From Oscillospiraceae bacterium (GTDB lineage: Bacteria; Bacillota; Clostridia; Oscillospirales; JAAYXM01), in contig JAFSEA010000110.1 of the NCBI GenBank assembly GCA_017435965.1, positions 1 through 52,434 of the forward strand: a stretch of DNA of 52,434 bases, written 5' to 3'. Within the stretch, counting starts at the first letter, position 1, and the number at the start of each line of letters is the position of its first letter. The notes beneath the pieces are model-generated. The model had not been told where the DNA came from. It searched no databases and saw only the letters and a program-made list of their open reading frames with translations. This document shows positions 11,153 to 52,430 of the stretch, piece by piece. Both the position numbers and the translations under genes were made by a program.

Positions 11153-11806
11153 TTGGGAGAGATACAAATTAAGACAATTTCCGTTGTCGATGCGGTAATA
11201 TCGGCACTTGAAAAGGATATATTTTTTACTTTTGCACCCGGTGAGAAAATGACGGAGAATGTTCTTATCTCACGTTATGGGGTAAGCCGCAATACTTTGC
11301 GTGAAGCAATGTCACAGCTTGTTTCCTGCGGTCTTCTTGTTAAAATCCCGAACCGCGGTGTTTTTGTCCGTGAAATAAACCGTGAGGATGTCCGTGAGAT
11401 TTTTTCACTTCGTGCTCTGCTTGAGACCGAGGCTGTTTGCAGAATAATAAAAAACGACACAGACACAAAGCCTCTTCTTGAAAAGGCAGAGTTTCTGCAA
11501 CGCGAAACTCCCCGTGATAACTGGGATGAATATGTCAGTGCGGATATTGATTTCCACACACTTCTCGTTTCCCTGTCGGAAAGCACCCGTCTCATTCGGC
11601 TTTATGATGCCATAATCTCCGAGGTGAAGCTCTGCATCTGCCAGTCAAAGGAGCATATTCCACCTACTGCAGTCAATAAAATCACGCACAAAGAAATTCT
11701 CGATGCAATTTCCGAAAAAAACTCAGTTCTCGCCTCAAAGCTTCTTTCAAAGCACATAGAAAACGCAATTTCAAACTACGAAAAGGGCTTTGATGCAAAA
11801 AAATAA
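11153..11806 (+). CDS. GntR-family regulator, FCD (FadR-type) ligand domain
   Basis: 217 residues, TTG start with a strong GGCGGTGAGG site. Residues about 10-75 are the winged helix (VLISRYGVSRNTLREAMSQL, then LLVKIPNRGVFV). Residues about 85-210 are the all-helical FCD domain with SADIDFHTLLVSLS holding the metal-binding Asp and His, and later His residues at THKEI and KHIENA. Such proteins repress metabolic operons and release on binding organic acids. It is divergent from the aminotransferase-aldolase operon, which is its likely target (inference from position). Confidence 0.88.
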   Translation: MGEIQIKTISVVDAVISALEKDIFFTFAPGEKMTENVLISRYGVSRNTLREAMSQLVSCGLLVKIPNRGVFVREINREDVREIFSLRALLETEAVCRIIKNDTDTKPLLEKAEFLQRETPRDNWDEYVSADIDFHTLLVSLSESTRLIRLYDAIISEVKLCICQSKEHIPPTAVNKITHKEILDAISEKNSVLASKLLSKHIENAISNYEKGFDAKK

Positions 11807-11835
11807 CTGTTGCCCGTAAGCAACAGTTATTTTTG
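11803..11835. terminator. Bidirectional terminator, ATAACTGTTGC stem
   Basis: ATAACTGTTGC (11803-11813) pairs perfectly with GCAACAGTTAT (11820-11830), flanked by A-run and T-run. It separates the converging GntR and giant surface protein genes. The same stem recurs at 22252-22279. Confidence 0.9.
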
Positions 11836-22107: not shown

Positions 22108-22251
22108 TAGTAAAAAGAAATTTTTAATAATTATCCGCCGTCCCATCGGCGAACCAACCGTAAAGCAAGGGGAATTTTTCCCGAACCGCCCAAAGCCGTC
22201 CAAGCAGATACAACTAAATACAAATACCGGAAACCCGTAAAAGTACAAAAA

Positions 22252-22284
22252 ATAACTGTTGCCCAACGGCAACAGTTATTTTTT
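22252..22284. terminator. Terminator with the same ATAACTGTTGC stem
   Basis: ATAACTGTTGCC (22252-22263), loop CAAC, GGCAACAGTTAT (22268-22279), with A-run before and T-run after. It lies at the stop codon of the TIM barrel-acyl-CoA synthetase gene, and its stem matches the terminator at 11803. Confidence 0.85.
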
Positions 22285-47295: not shown

Positions 47296-48717
47296 TCAGT
47301 TTATGATGTCGCTTGTATCAACAACGTGCATCGGCTGATATTTAACTACGATATCACCCGTTGACGGTGCTGCACCTTCTTCTTTGTCAAATACTATTCC
47401 CACATTGTCGCCCTTGCAGGTTTCATCTAAAGACTTATTGAACATCTGCAGATCTTCAGCAACACCGATTGCAATTACCTTATCGTTTCTGATAACGGAA
47501 ACCTTATCGCCTTTTCTGAGGATACCGTCTGCAACGCTTCCGACAACCTGATATGTCTTTCCAGCAGAAACGATTGAGTAACTGTCAACAGGCATTGAGA
47601 AGGGACCGTATACCTTGACGGCATCTGTTGTTATCGTAGTGCCTTCACTATCTGTGATTTTACAGGAAATAGCTTTGCCGAGAAGTGTGTTCTCCGCTTC
47701 AACCGAAAGAACGAGTGCCGAGGTAGATGCATCCTTTGCATAATCACCGTTTTCAATTTTCGTCTTCTGATTTCTGTAGCTGTTATACTGCCATTCGTAA
47801 GTATAAGGGCCTTTTCCTCCGAAAACCTGAACTGAAAGCTCATGCTTCACACCATAGGAGTCAAGCTCTGCACCTTCGGGCTGTTTATGAATGGTAAGCT
47901 CTGACTGAATCGGAGACTCTGTATTCGCTTCATGTTCTTTATTCGGAAGAACTTCTATCGCACCTTCTGTCACCTCGTCACCTTCAACAGTCGGAACTTT
48001 TATTTCCGGGTCATAATTCGTTTCCGGAAGAACTTCATATTTTGTTTCATCATTATCTGCGGTCTCTTCACCTTTCCCGGAATCTCCCGGTATATCAAAT
48101 TCAATTCTTCTGTCTTCATCCATCATACGGACAAGGATTGTTGCAACCTCACCTCTCTTGATATTCGCATGTGGGTTGCAGTTATGCTGAGCATCTACTC
48201 CCTGCAAAATTCCTGCACGATACATTTTATACACATAAGGAGCATAAACCGCTGTCATCGGAACATCGGGAATGGCATCATCGCTGATTGTGTTGATTGC
48301 CTTGAGTGCGTCATCTGTAAGTGCATTTGCAAAAATTTCTATATAACCTGCACGAGTTGCTTTTTCGTTGTAGTTATATTCCTTTGAGATAATCTTATTC
48401 TCTTTGCAGTAGTCAACGTATGTCTGATACCACGGATTTCCGTTTGCAAGCGTTACCTTACCCTCAACAGAGAGCTGATTCATACAAGCTGCAAGCTTGA
48501 TAGCTTCCGCATATGTGAGGTTATCATCCGGAGCAAATTTATCGGGTGACTTGCCATTTATGAGATTAAGCTGAGCCGCCGCAACAACATCGTCGTGATA
48601 CCAGGCGTTTTCCGGTACATCCGTAAAAGGATTGACGAAGTCCGATTCACCGTAAGCCACACCTGCCATTGTGAAAAGCATTGTAATTGCAAGAACGACT
48701 GATAATAATTTTTTCAT
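47296..48717 (-). CDS. SLH protein with Ig-like and EF-Tu domain II-like domains
   Basis: 473 residues; AGAGAGG lies upstream of the ATG. Residues 1-23 are a signal peptide. Residues about 27-200 hold three SLH repeats (NPFTDVPENAWYHDDVV, then YQTYVDYCKENKIIS, and a third with VYKMYRAGILQG). An acidic linker follows. Residues about 275-370 are an Ig-like domain (GGKGPYTYEWQYNS). Residues about 372-460 resemble domain II of translation elongation factors: VVGSVADGILRKGDKVSV, LQMFNKSLDE and GDNVGIVF, in the same order and spacing as EF-Tu GTVATGRV..., VEMFRKLLDE and GDNVGVLL. No G domain is present. It is 32 bases downstream of the larger paralogue and in the same operon. Confidence 0.82.
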   Translation of the reverse strand: MKKLLSVVLAITMLFTMAGVAYGESDFVNPFTDVPENAWYHDDVVAAAQLNLINGKSPDKFAPDDNLTYAEAIKLAACMNQLSVEGKVTLANGNPWYQTYVDYCKENKIISKEYNYNEKATRAGYIEIFANALTDDALKAINTISDDAIPDVPMTAVYAPYVYKMYRAGILQGVDAQHNCNPHANIKRGEVATILVRMMDEDRRIEFDIPGDSGKGEETADNDETKYEVLPETNYDPEIKVPTVEGDEVTEGAIEVLPNKEHEANTESPIQSELTIHKQPEGAELDSYGVKHELSVQVFGGKGPYTYEWQYNSYRNQKTKIENGDYAKDASTSALVLSVEAENTLLGKAISCKITDSEGTTITTDAVKVYGPFSMPVDSYSIVSAGKTYQVVGSVADGILRKGDKVSVIRNDKVIAIGVAEDLQMFNKSLDETCKGDNVGIVFDKEEGAAPSTGDIVVKYQPMHVVDTSDIIN

Positions 48718-48749: not shown

Positions 48750-51134
48750 TTATGGCATTATAACTATCATACTGTCTTTGGTCGAGCTTTTCTCAAAGCT
48801 CACATTCGGATCGCTGGCGATGATTATATAAGCTTCTTTACTCGTCGCCTTTCTTCCCGTAGCATCCGTTACTGTGCAACGGAACTTGCAATCGGAATCC
48901 ATTTTTGTACCATCAACTAAAACTGTTAATGTGTCGGTGGTTTCACCTTCTGCCCATTCATAGTCCTTGTAAACCTTAAGATATCCGCCGCCTAACACAT
49001 CACTCGGATATGTGAACTCCCATTGATATTTGTAAGGTGCTTTTCCGCCCTCGCTGGCTACCTTAAACTGCACCTTTTCGCCGTGTTTTCCAACAACGTT
49101 TTCGGGATTAGCAGTTATATACATTGATTTCGGAAGAATTTTTGCAGAGTTTGAAACTATGCCATAAGTGCCATTTTTGATTCCGCATCTGTATTCGCAG
49201 TGACTTACAAAATCGGCCTTCTCAACCTGTATTTTAAGATTTTTTGTAGTTGCTCCTTTTGCCCAAGTATCGGTAGTCTCGATTTTTTTCCAACCATTTG
49301 TGTTGTCGTTTTTATAGTACCACTGATATGTTGCATTGCTGCATCGTGAGTAAGCATAGAACTGAACTTCATCACCGACATCCGCATAAACGTTACTCGG
49401 CTGATATGCAAGATACGGCGTTGTTTTTGGAACAACATACATGGTATTTGGTGTTTTTGTAAATCCCGTTGCATCGGTTACTTCACACTTATATTGTACA
49501 CGGTTTGTAAACTCAGCTTCATCAACGAGAATTTCAACCCTGTCTCCATTTACTTTATGCTTGCTATCGTTCTTAAGCTCTATATATCCGCGTGAGTTTT
49601 CGCTCATATACCATTTATATGTGTAGGGACCCTTGCCACCAAAAACATTGACTTTTACTTGTGTTTTCTCTCCTACATCCGCATTGTATACGCAAGGAGT
49701 TACATGCATCCATGCCTTAAAGCCGTAATCGCCCATATCTGTGAGTCTTTTTGCGAGTGTCTCGCCGAGGTTTTCAACCACCCATTCGTCATATGGGATT
49801 TTCTCGGGGTTTTCGATGTAGATTTCGCAGTTATCGCCTTCGGCTACGTCATCAATGCTCTTTTTGAACATTTCGAGTCTCGTAACGACACCGAAAACCT
49901 CGATGCCCTTCGACGGCATATGTATTGATACCGTCTCACCAACTCTGAGAGCACCCTTTTGAACTCTGCCGGAGAAAACATATCCGGAATTGTATTTGGT
50001 AACATTCTCAGGCTTGAAAATAAATACCTTTTCGGGTAATGTAACATAGTCGGAGATAACCGTCTGACCAAGTGCATCTGTGACTATGCAGCAGAACTGA
50101 CTTGAGGTGGAGTTATCAAGGTCAAACACCATGGAAAGCGTGTTGGTCTTCACGCCCTTGACATATTGAGATTCTGTAAATTCAGCCTTTTGGTTATATT
50201 TGCTGCGTACTTGCCAGCTGTATGTATAAGGAGATTTTCCGCCCGCTGCCTTGACTGTGTAGGTAAGTGTGTCGCCTTCGTCTGCAGAATCAATTTTTTC
50301 AGGCTCGACCACAATTTCAAGAGGCTCATACATATCGGGAGTTTCGACTATTTCTTCCTCTACCTTCGGCTCTTCCGGAACCTCGGGGAGAATTTCGGCA
50401 TCCTTCGGAATTTCGAAAAGCGGTTCTTCAGTCTTTGGTTCTTCGGTCTTTGGTTCTTCTTCGGGATTCTCACCGGTCATTGAGAACTTCATTCTTGCAT
50501 CTCTGTTCATCATTCTTGTGATGATTGCCGCAACCTCACTCCTCTTTATATTCACATTGGGGTTGAGGTCGTGCTTTTCATTTACGCCTGCGAGAATACC
50601 GGCACGATAAAGCATATATATTTCTTTTGCAAAGGAATTAGCACCGTGATAATCCGGGATGGAACCCATCGGAACTTCGTTTATGGCAACGAATTCTTCC
50701 TCGGGAAGTGCGTGGGCAAAAATATTGAAAAACTGTTCTCTGGTTGCAAATGTCGTGTAGTTGTATTCTGTAAATTTTGATATAATTTCTTTTTCCCTGC
50801 AGTAATCAAGATATGTCTGATACCAGGGCGTTCCATTTACAAGCGTTACCTTTTTGTTTGCGTAATATTCGTTCATACAAGCCGCGAGTTTTATTGCCTC
50901 GGCATATGTAAGATTGTCGTCCGGTGCATAGGTTGTGGGAGACTTTCCGTTGATAAGCCCCATTTCAACTGCACTCTTTACATCCTCATAGTACCATGCG
51001 GCAGGTGCAACGTCTTTAAAGAAATCGGCACTATCTTTTTCTTCCGCCATTGCCGGAATAATCATAAAGGACAAAGCGAGCAGGAAGCATAGCAGAAGTG
51101 AAATGCCCCGAAAAATTTTCTTCGACTTTCTCAT
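48750..51134 (-). CDS. Large SLH protein with several Ig-like domains and an EF-Tu domain II-like domain
   Basis: 794 residues. Residues 1-30 are a signal peptide (Arg/Lys start, hydrophobic core, AMA cleavage). SLH repeats lie at about 33-90, 100-150 and 155-210 (FKDVAPAAWYYEDV, FATREQFFNIFAHAL, YRAGILAGVNEKH). A Glu/Pro/Thr-rich linker follows (EEPKTEEPKTEEP). Ig-like domains begin at about 270-365 (GGKSPYTYSWQ) and recur three times after 470 (GGKGPYTYKWYMSE, NATYQWYYKN, GGKAPYKYQWEF). Residues about 370-445 resemble elongation-factor domain II (FSGRVQKGALRVGETVSI, RLEMFKKSIDD, EGDNCEIYI). The protein is anchored by SLH and likely exposed. First gene of the surface operon, about 40 bases from the palindromic promoter. 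Confidence 0.82.
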   Translation of the reverse strand: MRKSKKIFRGISLLLCFLLALSFMIIPAMAEEKDSADFFKDVAPAAWYYEDVKSAVEMGLINGKSPTTYAPDDNLTYAEAIKLAACMNEYYANKKVTLVNGTPWYQTYLDYCREKEIISKFTEYNYTTFATREQFFNIFAHALPEEEFVAINEVPMGSIPDYHGANSFAKEIYMLYRAGILAGVNEKHDLNPNVNIKRSEVAAIITRMMNRDARMKFSMTGENPEEEPKTEEPKTEEPLFEIPKDAEILPEVPEEPKVEEEIVETPDMYEPLEIVVEPEKIDSADEGDTLTYTVKAAGGKSPYTYSWQVRSKYNQKAEFTESQYVKGVKTNTLSMVFDLDNSTSSQFCCIVTDALGQTVISDYVTLPEKVFIFKPENVTKYNSGYVFSGRVQKGALRVGETVSIHMPSKGIEVFGVVTRLEMFKKSIDDVAEGDNCEIYIENPEKIPYDEWVVENLGETLAKRLTDMGDYGFKAWMHVTPCVYNADVGEKTQVKVNVFGGKGPYTYKWYMSENSRGYIELKNDSKHKVNGDRVEILVDEAEFTNRVQYKCEVTDATGFTKTPNTMYVVPKTTPYLAYQPSNVYADVGDEVQFYAYSRCSNATYQWYYKNDNTNGWKKIETTDTWAKGATTKNLKIQVEKADFVSHCEYRCGIKNGTYGIVSNSAKILPKSMYITANPENVVGKHGEKVQFKVASEGGKAPYKYQWEFTYPSDVLGGGYLKVYKDYEWAEGETTDTLTVLVDGTKMDSDCKFRCTVTDATGRKATSKEAYIIIASDPNVSFEKSSTKDSMIVIMP

Positions 51135-51164
51135 AAAATCTCCTCCTCAGAAGTTGATCCAATA

Positions 51165-51214
51165 TGCCTTTGACTAAGTTATTATATTGTGGTATAATAA
51201 CTTAGTCAAAGGCA
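51165..51214. promoter_or_regulatory. Perfectly symmetric divergent promoter
   Basis: A 22-base arm beginning TGCCTTTGACTAAG (51165-51186) and its exact reverse complement (51193-51214) are separated by TTGTGG. On the plus strand TTGACT (51170-51175), 17 bases, TATAAT (51193-51198) form a promoter toward the LuxR gene. By symmetry the minus strand has TTGACT (51209-51204), 17 bases, TATAAT (51186-51181) toward the SLH operon. Each -10 lies in the other's spacer, so the two directions compete or are controlled together. Confidence 0.8.
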
Positions 51215-51258
51215 GAACTGCTATTCTGTACCTTTGTTGCTTTAATTATACCCCCTCC

Positions 51259-51340
51259 CCACACCAAATCCGCCACCCTTATTCCAAAAAAAGTGTGGGA
51301 TTTGAATTTTTTCTTTCAAAAAGTGTGGCAGAAAGTGTGG
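51259..51340 (+). repeat. Three direct copies of AAGTGTGG (plus one inverted partial copy)
   Basis: AAGTGTGG occurs at 51291-51298, 51321-51328 and 51333-51340. GTGTGG also occurs inverted at 51264-51259. They lie in the 5' untranslated stretch of the LuxR gene, 44-125 bases before its ATG. Candidate protein-binding repeats. Confidence 0.5.
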
Positions 51341-51383: not shown

Positions 51384-52430
51384 ATGAAAAAAACAATACT
51401 GCTTGTTGCAGTTTTATTTATGATGCTATCGTTCTTTTCGGGATGTGCTCCCATAGGCGACAAAACAATGAACATATCGATAATCTACGGAGCAATGTCT
51501 GTAATCTCACTTTTGCTCCTTATTGCATACAGATTTTTAATCAAAAAGAGAACTCCCTGGTTTTATCTGCTGTTTTCATCAGTCCTCATAGTGAACATAG
51601 GATATTTTCTTCTTTCTGCTTCCGAAACACTCAATACGGCACTTATCGCAAACCGCATTTCCTATTTCGGCTCGGTTTTCCTTCCGCTTTCAATGCTTAT
51701 GATAATTCTTAAAACGGCAAACCTCGGTTATAAGAAGTGGTTTCCGCCCACACTTGTGGCTATCAGCATAATCGTCTTTCTCGTTGCCGCAAGTCCCGGA
51801 TATCTCGATATCTACTACAAATCAACTTCAATAGAAAAAGTAAACGGAATAACCATTCTTTTAAAGGAATATGGACCTCTTCACTGCATTTATCTTTTCT
51901 ATCTGCTCATATATTTTTCTACAATGGTTGCAGCAATCATTTATGCTACTGTCAAAAAAAAGGTCAAATCAAATGCTCATTCCGTCATTCTTGCAATCAC
52001 CGTATTTGTAAATATCGGCGTGTGGCTTTTGGGTCAGCTTTCAAGAATAGAATTTGAATTTCTCTCCGTCTCCTACATAATCAGCGAGCTTTTCCTTTTA
52101 GGTCTCTATCTTATGCTCCAAGGAGAAACAGACATCCGGTCGGCAGAAGCACCCGTTTCTGTGCCCATCCCCACTCAGCCCGAACATATGCCGAACCCAT
52201 CTCAATCGGAATTCTTCATAAATAACCTCAAAACACTCACAAATACCGAGCGAAAAATATATGACCTGTATCTTAACGGTGCTACCACAAAAGAGATCAT
52301 GGCAAATCTCAATATAAAAGAAAACACTCTTAAATTCCACAACAAAAATCTCTATAGCAAACTCGGAGTCTCCTCCAGAAAAGAACTTATAGCAATAGCC
52401 ACGAGTATTAAAAATTCAAATCATATATAG
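51384..52430 (+). CDS. Membrane-bound LuxR-type regulator with 7TM-like sensor
   Basis: 348 residues; GAGGTGTCC precedes the ATG. Residues 1-250 contain about eight hydrophobic segments, resembling the N-terminal 7TM sensor of some clostridial histidine kinases; the first could be a signal with a lipobox-like FFSGC. A Pro/Ser-rich linker leads to a LuxR-type HTH at about 285-345 (LTNTERKIYDLYLNGATTKE, then NTLKFHNKNLYSKLGVSSR). There is no receiver or kinase domain, so this would be a one-component regulator that binds DNA from the membrane. It is divergent from the SLH operon across a shared palindromic promoter, and so is its likely controller. The stop is TAG followed at once by TAA. The gene ends four bases before the window end. 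Confidence 0.82.
   Translation: MKKTILLVAVLFMMLSFFSGCAPIGDKTMNISIIYGAMSVISLLLLIAYRFLIKKRTPWFYLLFSSVLIVNIGYFLLSASETLNTALIANRISYFGSVFLPLSMLMIILKTANLGYKKWFPPTLVAISIIVFLVAASPGYLDIYYKSTSIEKVNGITILLKEYGPLHCIYLFYLLIYFSTMVAAIIYATVKKKVKSNAHSVILAITVFVNIGVWLLGQLSRIEFEFLSVSYIISELFLLGLYLMLQGETDIRSAEAPVSVPIPTQPEHMPNPSQSEFFINNLKTLTNTERKIYDLYLNGATTKEIMANLNIKENTLKFHNKNLYSKLGVSSRKELIAIATSIKNSNHI

Follow-up and report, generated by a model that had tools for sequence, protein, structure and literature searches.

The perfect palindrome at positions 51165-51214 of the window, the whole 52,434-nucleotide stretch of DNA analysed here, is somewhat likelier than otherwise to be an overlapping bidirectional promoter that was made from an old luxR promoter, with the divergent SLH operon gaining a new promoter and each direction excluding the other. 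The observation made in an earlier note is confirmed and the interpretation given there is partly supported, with the comparative evidence as to which half of the element is the older, namely the promoter directed towards luxR, being unusually clear. The window is one whole contig (G000:C107) that ends just past the luxR gene, with the run of minus-strand genes to the left of the palindrome beginning with both SLH genes, and luxR lying to its right. The features of this region are as follows.

47296-48717, minus strand: second gene of the divergent operon, encoding a 473-aa SLH protein
48750-51134, minus strand: first gene of the divergent operon, encoding a 794-aa protein with an SLH domain and Ig-like domains
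51140-51146, minus strand: ribosome binding site GGAGGAG of the first SLH gene
51165-51186, plus strand: left arm of the palindrome, TGCCTTTGACTAAGTTATTATA
51170-51198, plus strand: promoter TTGACT-17-TATAAT towards luxR, predicted start about 51205, the conserved one of the two
51181-51209, minus strand: promoter TTGACT-17-TATAAT towards the SLH operon, predicted start about 51174, in this genome only
51187-51192, plus strand: centre TTGTGG, giving the TGN of an extended -10 for the plus promoter only
51193-51214, plus strand: right arm, the exact reverse complement of the left arm
51384-52430, plus strand: luxR, encoding a membrane regulator of 348 aa with a HisKA_7TM sensor region and a GerE/LuxR DNA-binding domain

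Both SLH proteins (48750-51134 and 47296-48717) also give a weak match to GTP_EFTU_D2, the EF-Tu domain 2 fold, which is odd in a surface protein.

The earlier note had described 22-base arms around a 6-base centre, with TTGACT-17-TATAAT on both strands and each -10 inside the opposite spacer, and this description is exact. The arms of the 50-base palindrome are complementary at 22 of 22 positions, with perfect mirroring also at TGCCT and AAGTT, which lie beyond the hexamers. The 34 specified bases were unmatched, even with three mismatches, in 100 dinucleotide shuffles of the window, and the 22-nt arms make this the longest tight palindrome of the 52-kb window, with the runner-up having arms of 17 nt; a chance palindrome was ruled out by the shuffles and by this comparison with the other palindromes of the window. 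Matches to the arm were found at eight places in the genome, including both arms themselves, compared with seven for a reversed control, indicating a single copy. A dispersed repeat or MITE was rejected on this control-level count and on the lack of any match in plasmids, and an intrinsic terminator on the lack of a T-tract past either arm and of any call at the palindrome in a terminator scan. An Rfam search of the palindrome returned sub-threshold chance matches only. Elsewhere in the window, two near-identical terminator-like palindromes (AAATAACTGTTGCC...GGCAACAGTTATTT) lie at 22247-22284 and 11799-11834, about 10 kb apart.

The hexamers of the plus promoter are TTGACT at 51170-51175 and TATAAT at 51193-51198, and those of the minus promoter are TTGACT at 51209-51204 and TATAAT at 51186-51181, read on the minus strand. 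Both promoters match 11 of 12 consensus bases, and each -10 sits within the spacer of the opposite promoter, with the -10s 6 bp apart and the predicted starts 31 bp apart, so close that RNA polymerase could bind in either orientation but not in both at once. The earlier note called the two promoters identical, which is not strictly right: the hexamers and 11 spacer bases are common to both, however the centre differs by strand, supplying an extended -10 (TGG-TATAAT, TGGTATAAT) at 51190-51198 on the plus strand only. The minus promoter lies 40 nt before the SLH start codon, which is preceded by a good ribosome binding site. We infer the activity of either promoter from its sequence, with the plus direction of transcription supported by conservation.

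The comparison set consisted of 21 orthologous 7TM-LuxR loci in the order, in most of which a divergent surface-protein or SLH gene adjoins the regulator. All 20 loci with enough upstream sequence carry a promoter towards luxR, of the TTGAN or TTGCN type with a TATAAT-like -10 and a spacer of always 17 bp, and TGN directly precedes the -10 in 18 of these 20 relatives. The score of this promoter was reached by none of 100 shuffles of a 330-bp stretch in 17 relatives and in the window, and likewise in G355, with the plus promoters of G003 and G185 lying just outside the stretch and G196 cut by a contig end. The TTGACT...TTGTGG-TATAAT of the window is, as judged by this comparison, plainly the same element as the plus promoter of the relatives. 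On the plus side, then, the earlier reading of the palindrome as two promoters is strongly supported by the 20 loci, whereas on the minus side it draws on a near-consensus sequence and a position before the SLH start, with a counterpart in none of the relatives.

Perfect inverted repeats that touch the plus promoter reach at most 4-7 bp in the relatives, compared with 22 bp in the window, and a minus-strand TTGAC (GTCAA) downstream of the -10 of the plus promoter was found at the orthologous locus of no relative. Because no relative has a GTCAA-like sequence in this position, the AGTCAA of the right arm, and with it the minus promoter, is taken to be derived. A family search of nine genomes found no palindrome in close relatives, and in the nearest relatives that carry the SLH gene (G002, G004, and G006) the contigs stop short of the palindrome region, so that its origin is without a date or polarity from a near neighbour.

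In the proposed origin, the plus promoter with its extended -10 would drive luxR through a leader of about 180 nt crossing an array of GTGTGG boxes, and a replication template switch within the short ATTATA/TATAAT pair would have copied the left arm, with its TTGACT, onto the right. The short seed ATTAT...TATAAT is present in at least one relative (G302, ATTATTTGTGATATAAT). Template switching is an established process that turns imperfect inverted repeats perfect (PMC7202029, PMC8604942), and the quasipalindrome mutations described there resemble the window in that one arm is copied onto the other to give a perfect repeat, however the event here is one that we infer from a single sequence and distant relatives, and its product is a promoter. 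As the copying mechanism, a template switch would probably yield the palindrome in one step, and a perfect arm can also persist by selection for a protein site. The symmetrising would have provided the SLH operon with a strong promoter close to consensus on the opposite strand, alongside the decay of the older operon promoter that was linked to the boxes. As the -10 elements are only 6 bp apart, one bound polymerase would cover both promoters, with initiation at the SLH operon excluding initiation at luxR, and the reverse.

The old promoter of the operon lies nearer luxR, and in the relatives consists of a box (GTGTG, GGGTG, or GTATG) that merges into GNGAC(A/T), followed after 16-17 bp by a TATAAT-like hexamer. 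This pattern is matched in 20 of the 21 relatives, with G355 matching with one change, and has no match in the window, where the -35 is degraded and the -10 is perfect. The remnant and the neighbouring boxes are as follows.

51245-51278, minus strand: remnant of the conserved operon promoter, GGGTG, GCGGAT, 17 bp, TATAAT (relatives: G-box, GNGACA-17-TATAAT)
51245-51250, minus strand: -10 of the remnant, TATAAT, after a 17-bp spacer
51259-51264, minus strand: inverted GTGTGG box, inside the spacer of the remnant
51268-51273, minus strand: -35 position of the remnant, GCGGAT
51273-51278, minus strand: box of the remnant, GGGTGG
51293-51298, plus strand: direct GTGTGG box 1, a putative LuxR site
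51323-51328, plus strand: direct GTGTGG box 2
51335-51340, plus strand: direct GTGTGG box 3

Having kept a perfect TATAAT, the remnant could still function if helped by an activator. The promoters of regulator and operon are convergent in 18 of 20 relatives (L075, L077, L086, L112, and others) and their leaders overlap, with predicted starts lying 1 to 142 nt past each other, whereas G027 and G143 have the plus promoter beyond the boxes, on the side of luxR. Facing promoters with overlapping 5' leaders would be suited to transcriptional interference.

The GTGTGG array (51259-51340 in the window; L075-L078, L086, and L112-L127) is found upstream of luxR in all orthologous loci, usually as a single inverted box accompanied by as many as three direct ones, and the box sequence differs between species, being GTGTGGG, GGGTGGG, or GTATGGG. 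The boxes are thus conserved upstream of the orthologues and vary with the recognition helix of the regulator: with box classes assigned by eye, a Phe in this helix (ENTLKFHN) accompanies GTGTGGG in 11 of 11 cases and, of the 11 cases with a Tyr, 9 have GGGTGGG or some other box (Fisher p = 2e-4). At least six changes of this residue are needed on the best tree, where support is good for few branches and firm for only one independent pair. Since the sequence of the box varies with the recognition-helix residue, LuxR most likely acts at the array and not at the palindrome, which suggests that it regulates itself and the operon from there. The array is a likely autoregulatory operator of an undescribed group of 7TM-LuxR regulators.

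The earlier note had also considered that a symmetric protein at the palindrome might switch both promoters at once, and an operator of this kind, with the protein repressing or activating the pair and keeping the arms perfect, is possible but unlikely. Whilst the mirrored identity extends beyond the hexamers to TGCCT and AAGTT, and shared operators are frequent in divergent pairs of regulator and target, copies of the arm occur in the genome at the control level and are absent from the orthologous loci, leaving neither a regulon nor a conserved site. Furthermore, the neighbouring LuxR has its own conserved boxes elsewhere, so that joint switching at the palindrome is not supported and this separate array is the putative operator.

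A role in RNA appears improbable. Transcripts of the SLH genes starting at the old promoter (about 51238) would carry the 22-bp hairpin, which would protect the mRNA, with the minus promoter being incidental. The predicted fold of the palindrome RNA is strong (-32.2 kcal/mol, z of -10) and the old operon promoter upstream keeps its perfect TATAAT, however a comparable hairpin is absent at this place in the relatives, the -35 position of the old promoter is poor in the window (GCGGAT), and a near-consensus minus-strand promoter within the stem would be a large coincidence. As a terminator, the hairpin is without a U-tract. A search of the literature on HisKA_7TM-LuxR proteins and S-layer leader hairpins found nothing usable.

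Less probable still is that the two promoters overlap by ordinary chance and do not interact functionally. When 84,980 species genomes were scanned for TTGACN6ATTATAN6TATAATN6GTCAA, the interlocked geometry was found in 20 other contigs, all carrying the label Clostridia, Clostridium, Oscillospiraceae, Ruminococcus, Eubacteriales, or Bacilli. These fall into about eight unrelated gene settings, in most of which a regulator (HxlR, AraC, HTH, or response regulator) belongs to a divergent pair. These numbers are roughly what the frequency of TTGACN18TATAAT sites allows, with some 10 to 310 such sites per genome in this order; on this rough estimate a handful of interlocked pairs would be expected by chance, and the geometry itself is not remarkable. 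A special status for the 6-bp centre was likewise rejected, with viral contigs giving 1, 6, 1, and 1 matches for centres of 6, 3, 9, and 5 bp respectively, so that 6 bp is no commoner than 3, 5, or 9. Chance overlap cannot, however, yield 22 perfect arm bases, and near-consensus promoters 6 bp apart must sterically exclude each other if both are used. Promoters of HxlR-type regulators interlocked with a perfect opposite-strand TTGAC-17-TATAAT, with the same length of centre, were seen at L092, L097, L099, L104, L105, L108, and L111.

Tyrosine-recombinase core sites have inverted arms around a 6-bp centre, and the resemblance of the palindrome to this plan is what speaks for the inversion or recombination site with a flipping centre raised in the earlier note, an explanation that is very improbable given that the palindrome is single copy, that its best match to the B. 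subtilis dif sequence is 13 of 28 positions and no better than the AT-rich expectation, that the arms are accounted for by promoter elements and a flip would only move the extended -10, and that TTGTGG, in the one genome of the species, has the orientation of the relatives' conserved TTGTGN-TATAAT.

Overlapping bidirectional promoters are already known, and the palindrome of the window is a variant of them. The HxlR, AraC, and other Clostridia regulator loci share with it TTGAC-17-TATAAT on both strands, -10s exactly 6 bp apart, and mostly divergent genes, however their arms match at the promoter hexamers only, with none of the 20 contigs perfect beyond 6-8 bases from the centre, compared with 22 here. 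The bidirectional promoters with a symmetric -10 described by Warman et al. (2021 and 2026, PMC12825309) are similar in that a short piece of DNA binds polymerase either way, that the divergent mRNAs are often those of a regulator and its neighbour, and that the directions compete at high activity. In contrast to those promoters, where one -10 is shared and starts are mostly 10, 18, or 23 bp apart, the window has two full -10/-35 pairs interlocked, more widely spaced starts, and long perfect arms. At their basal activity the natural bidirectional promoters of E. coli are too weak to compete, but an increase in one direction represses the other (PMC12825309). The Pc/Pr promoters of pLS20 (PMC4207663) are likewise an overlapping, divergent pair of regulator and operon in a Gram-positive system, with intergenic operator sites away from the core promoters, however their strengths are strongly unequal and their regulator is of the Xre type with looping, whereas the two promoters of the window hardly differ and their regulator is of the 7TM-LuxR type and sits in the membrane. 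The idea that polymerases at the palindrome would exclude one another is plausible, being sound steric reasoning with direct precedent in these systems (PMC12825309, PMC4207663), and competition is plausible because both promoters are so near consensus. That the symmetry is itself a device, with the near-consensus promoter pair, mirrored in all but the extended -10, forming a stochastic single-site switch between the regulator and the surface-protein operon that arose in one template-switch step, is a tentative and rather unlikely extension of the bidirectional promoter.

If the proposed origin from the luxR promoter is right, the palindrome would record the birth of a bidirectional promoter, dated in principle, with the one-way ancestor present in 20 relatives and the mirror copy in one. 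It would also offer a nearly symmetric natural template for competition between RNA polymerases, with the two directions differing in the 6-base centre and the outside sequence. As a by-product, the comparison exposes a conserved regulatory region for the undescribed membrane 7TM-LuxR group. Between the regulator and operon promoters, six distant relatives (L010, L016, L020, L112, L116, and L125, upstream of luxR) carry a leader motif, GGGGCGG...TTGGCGCG...GGGNACCCC, which the window does not have; the motif gave no match in Rfam and no covariation with RNAalifold in the six sequences, and second copies of TTGGCGCG are present in G027 and G143.
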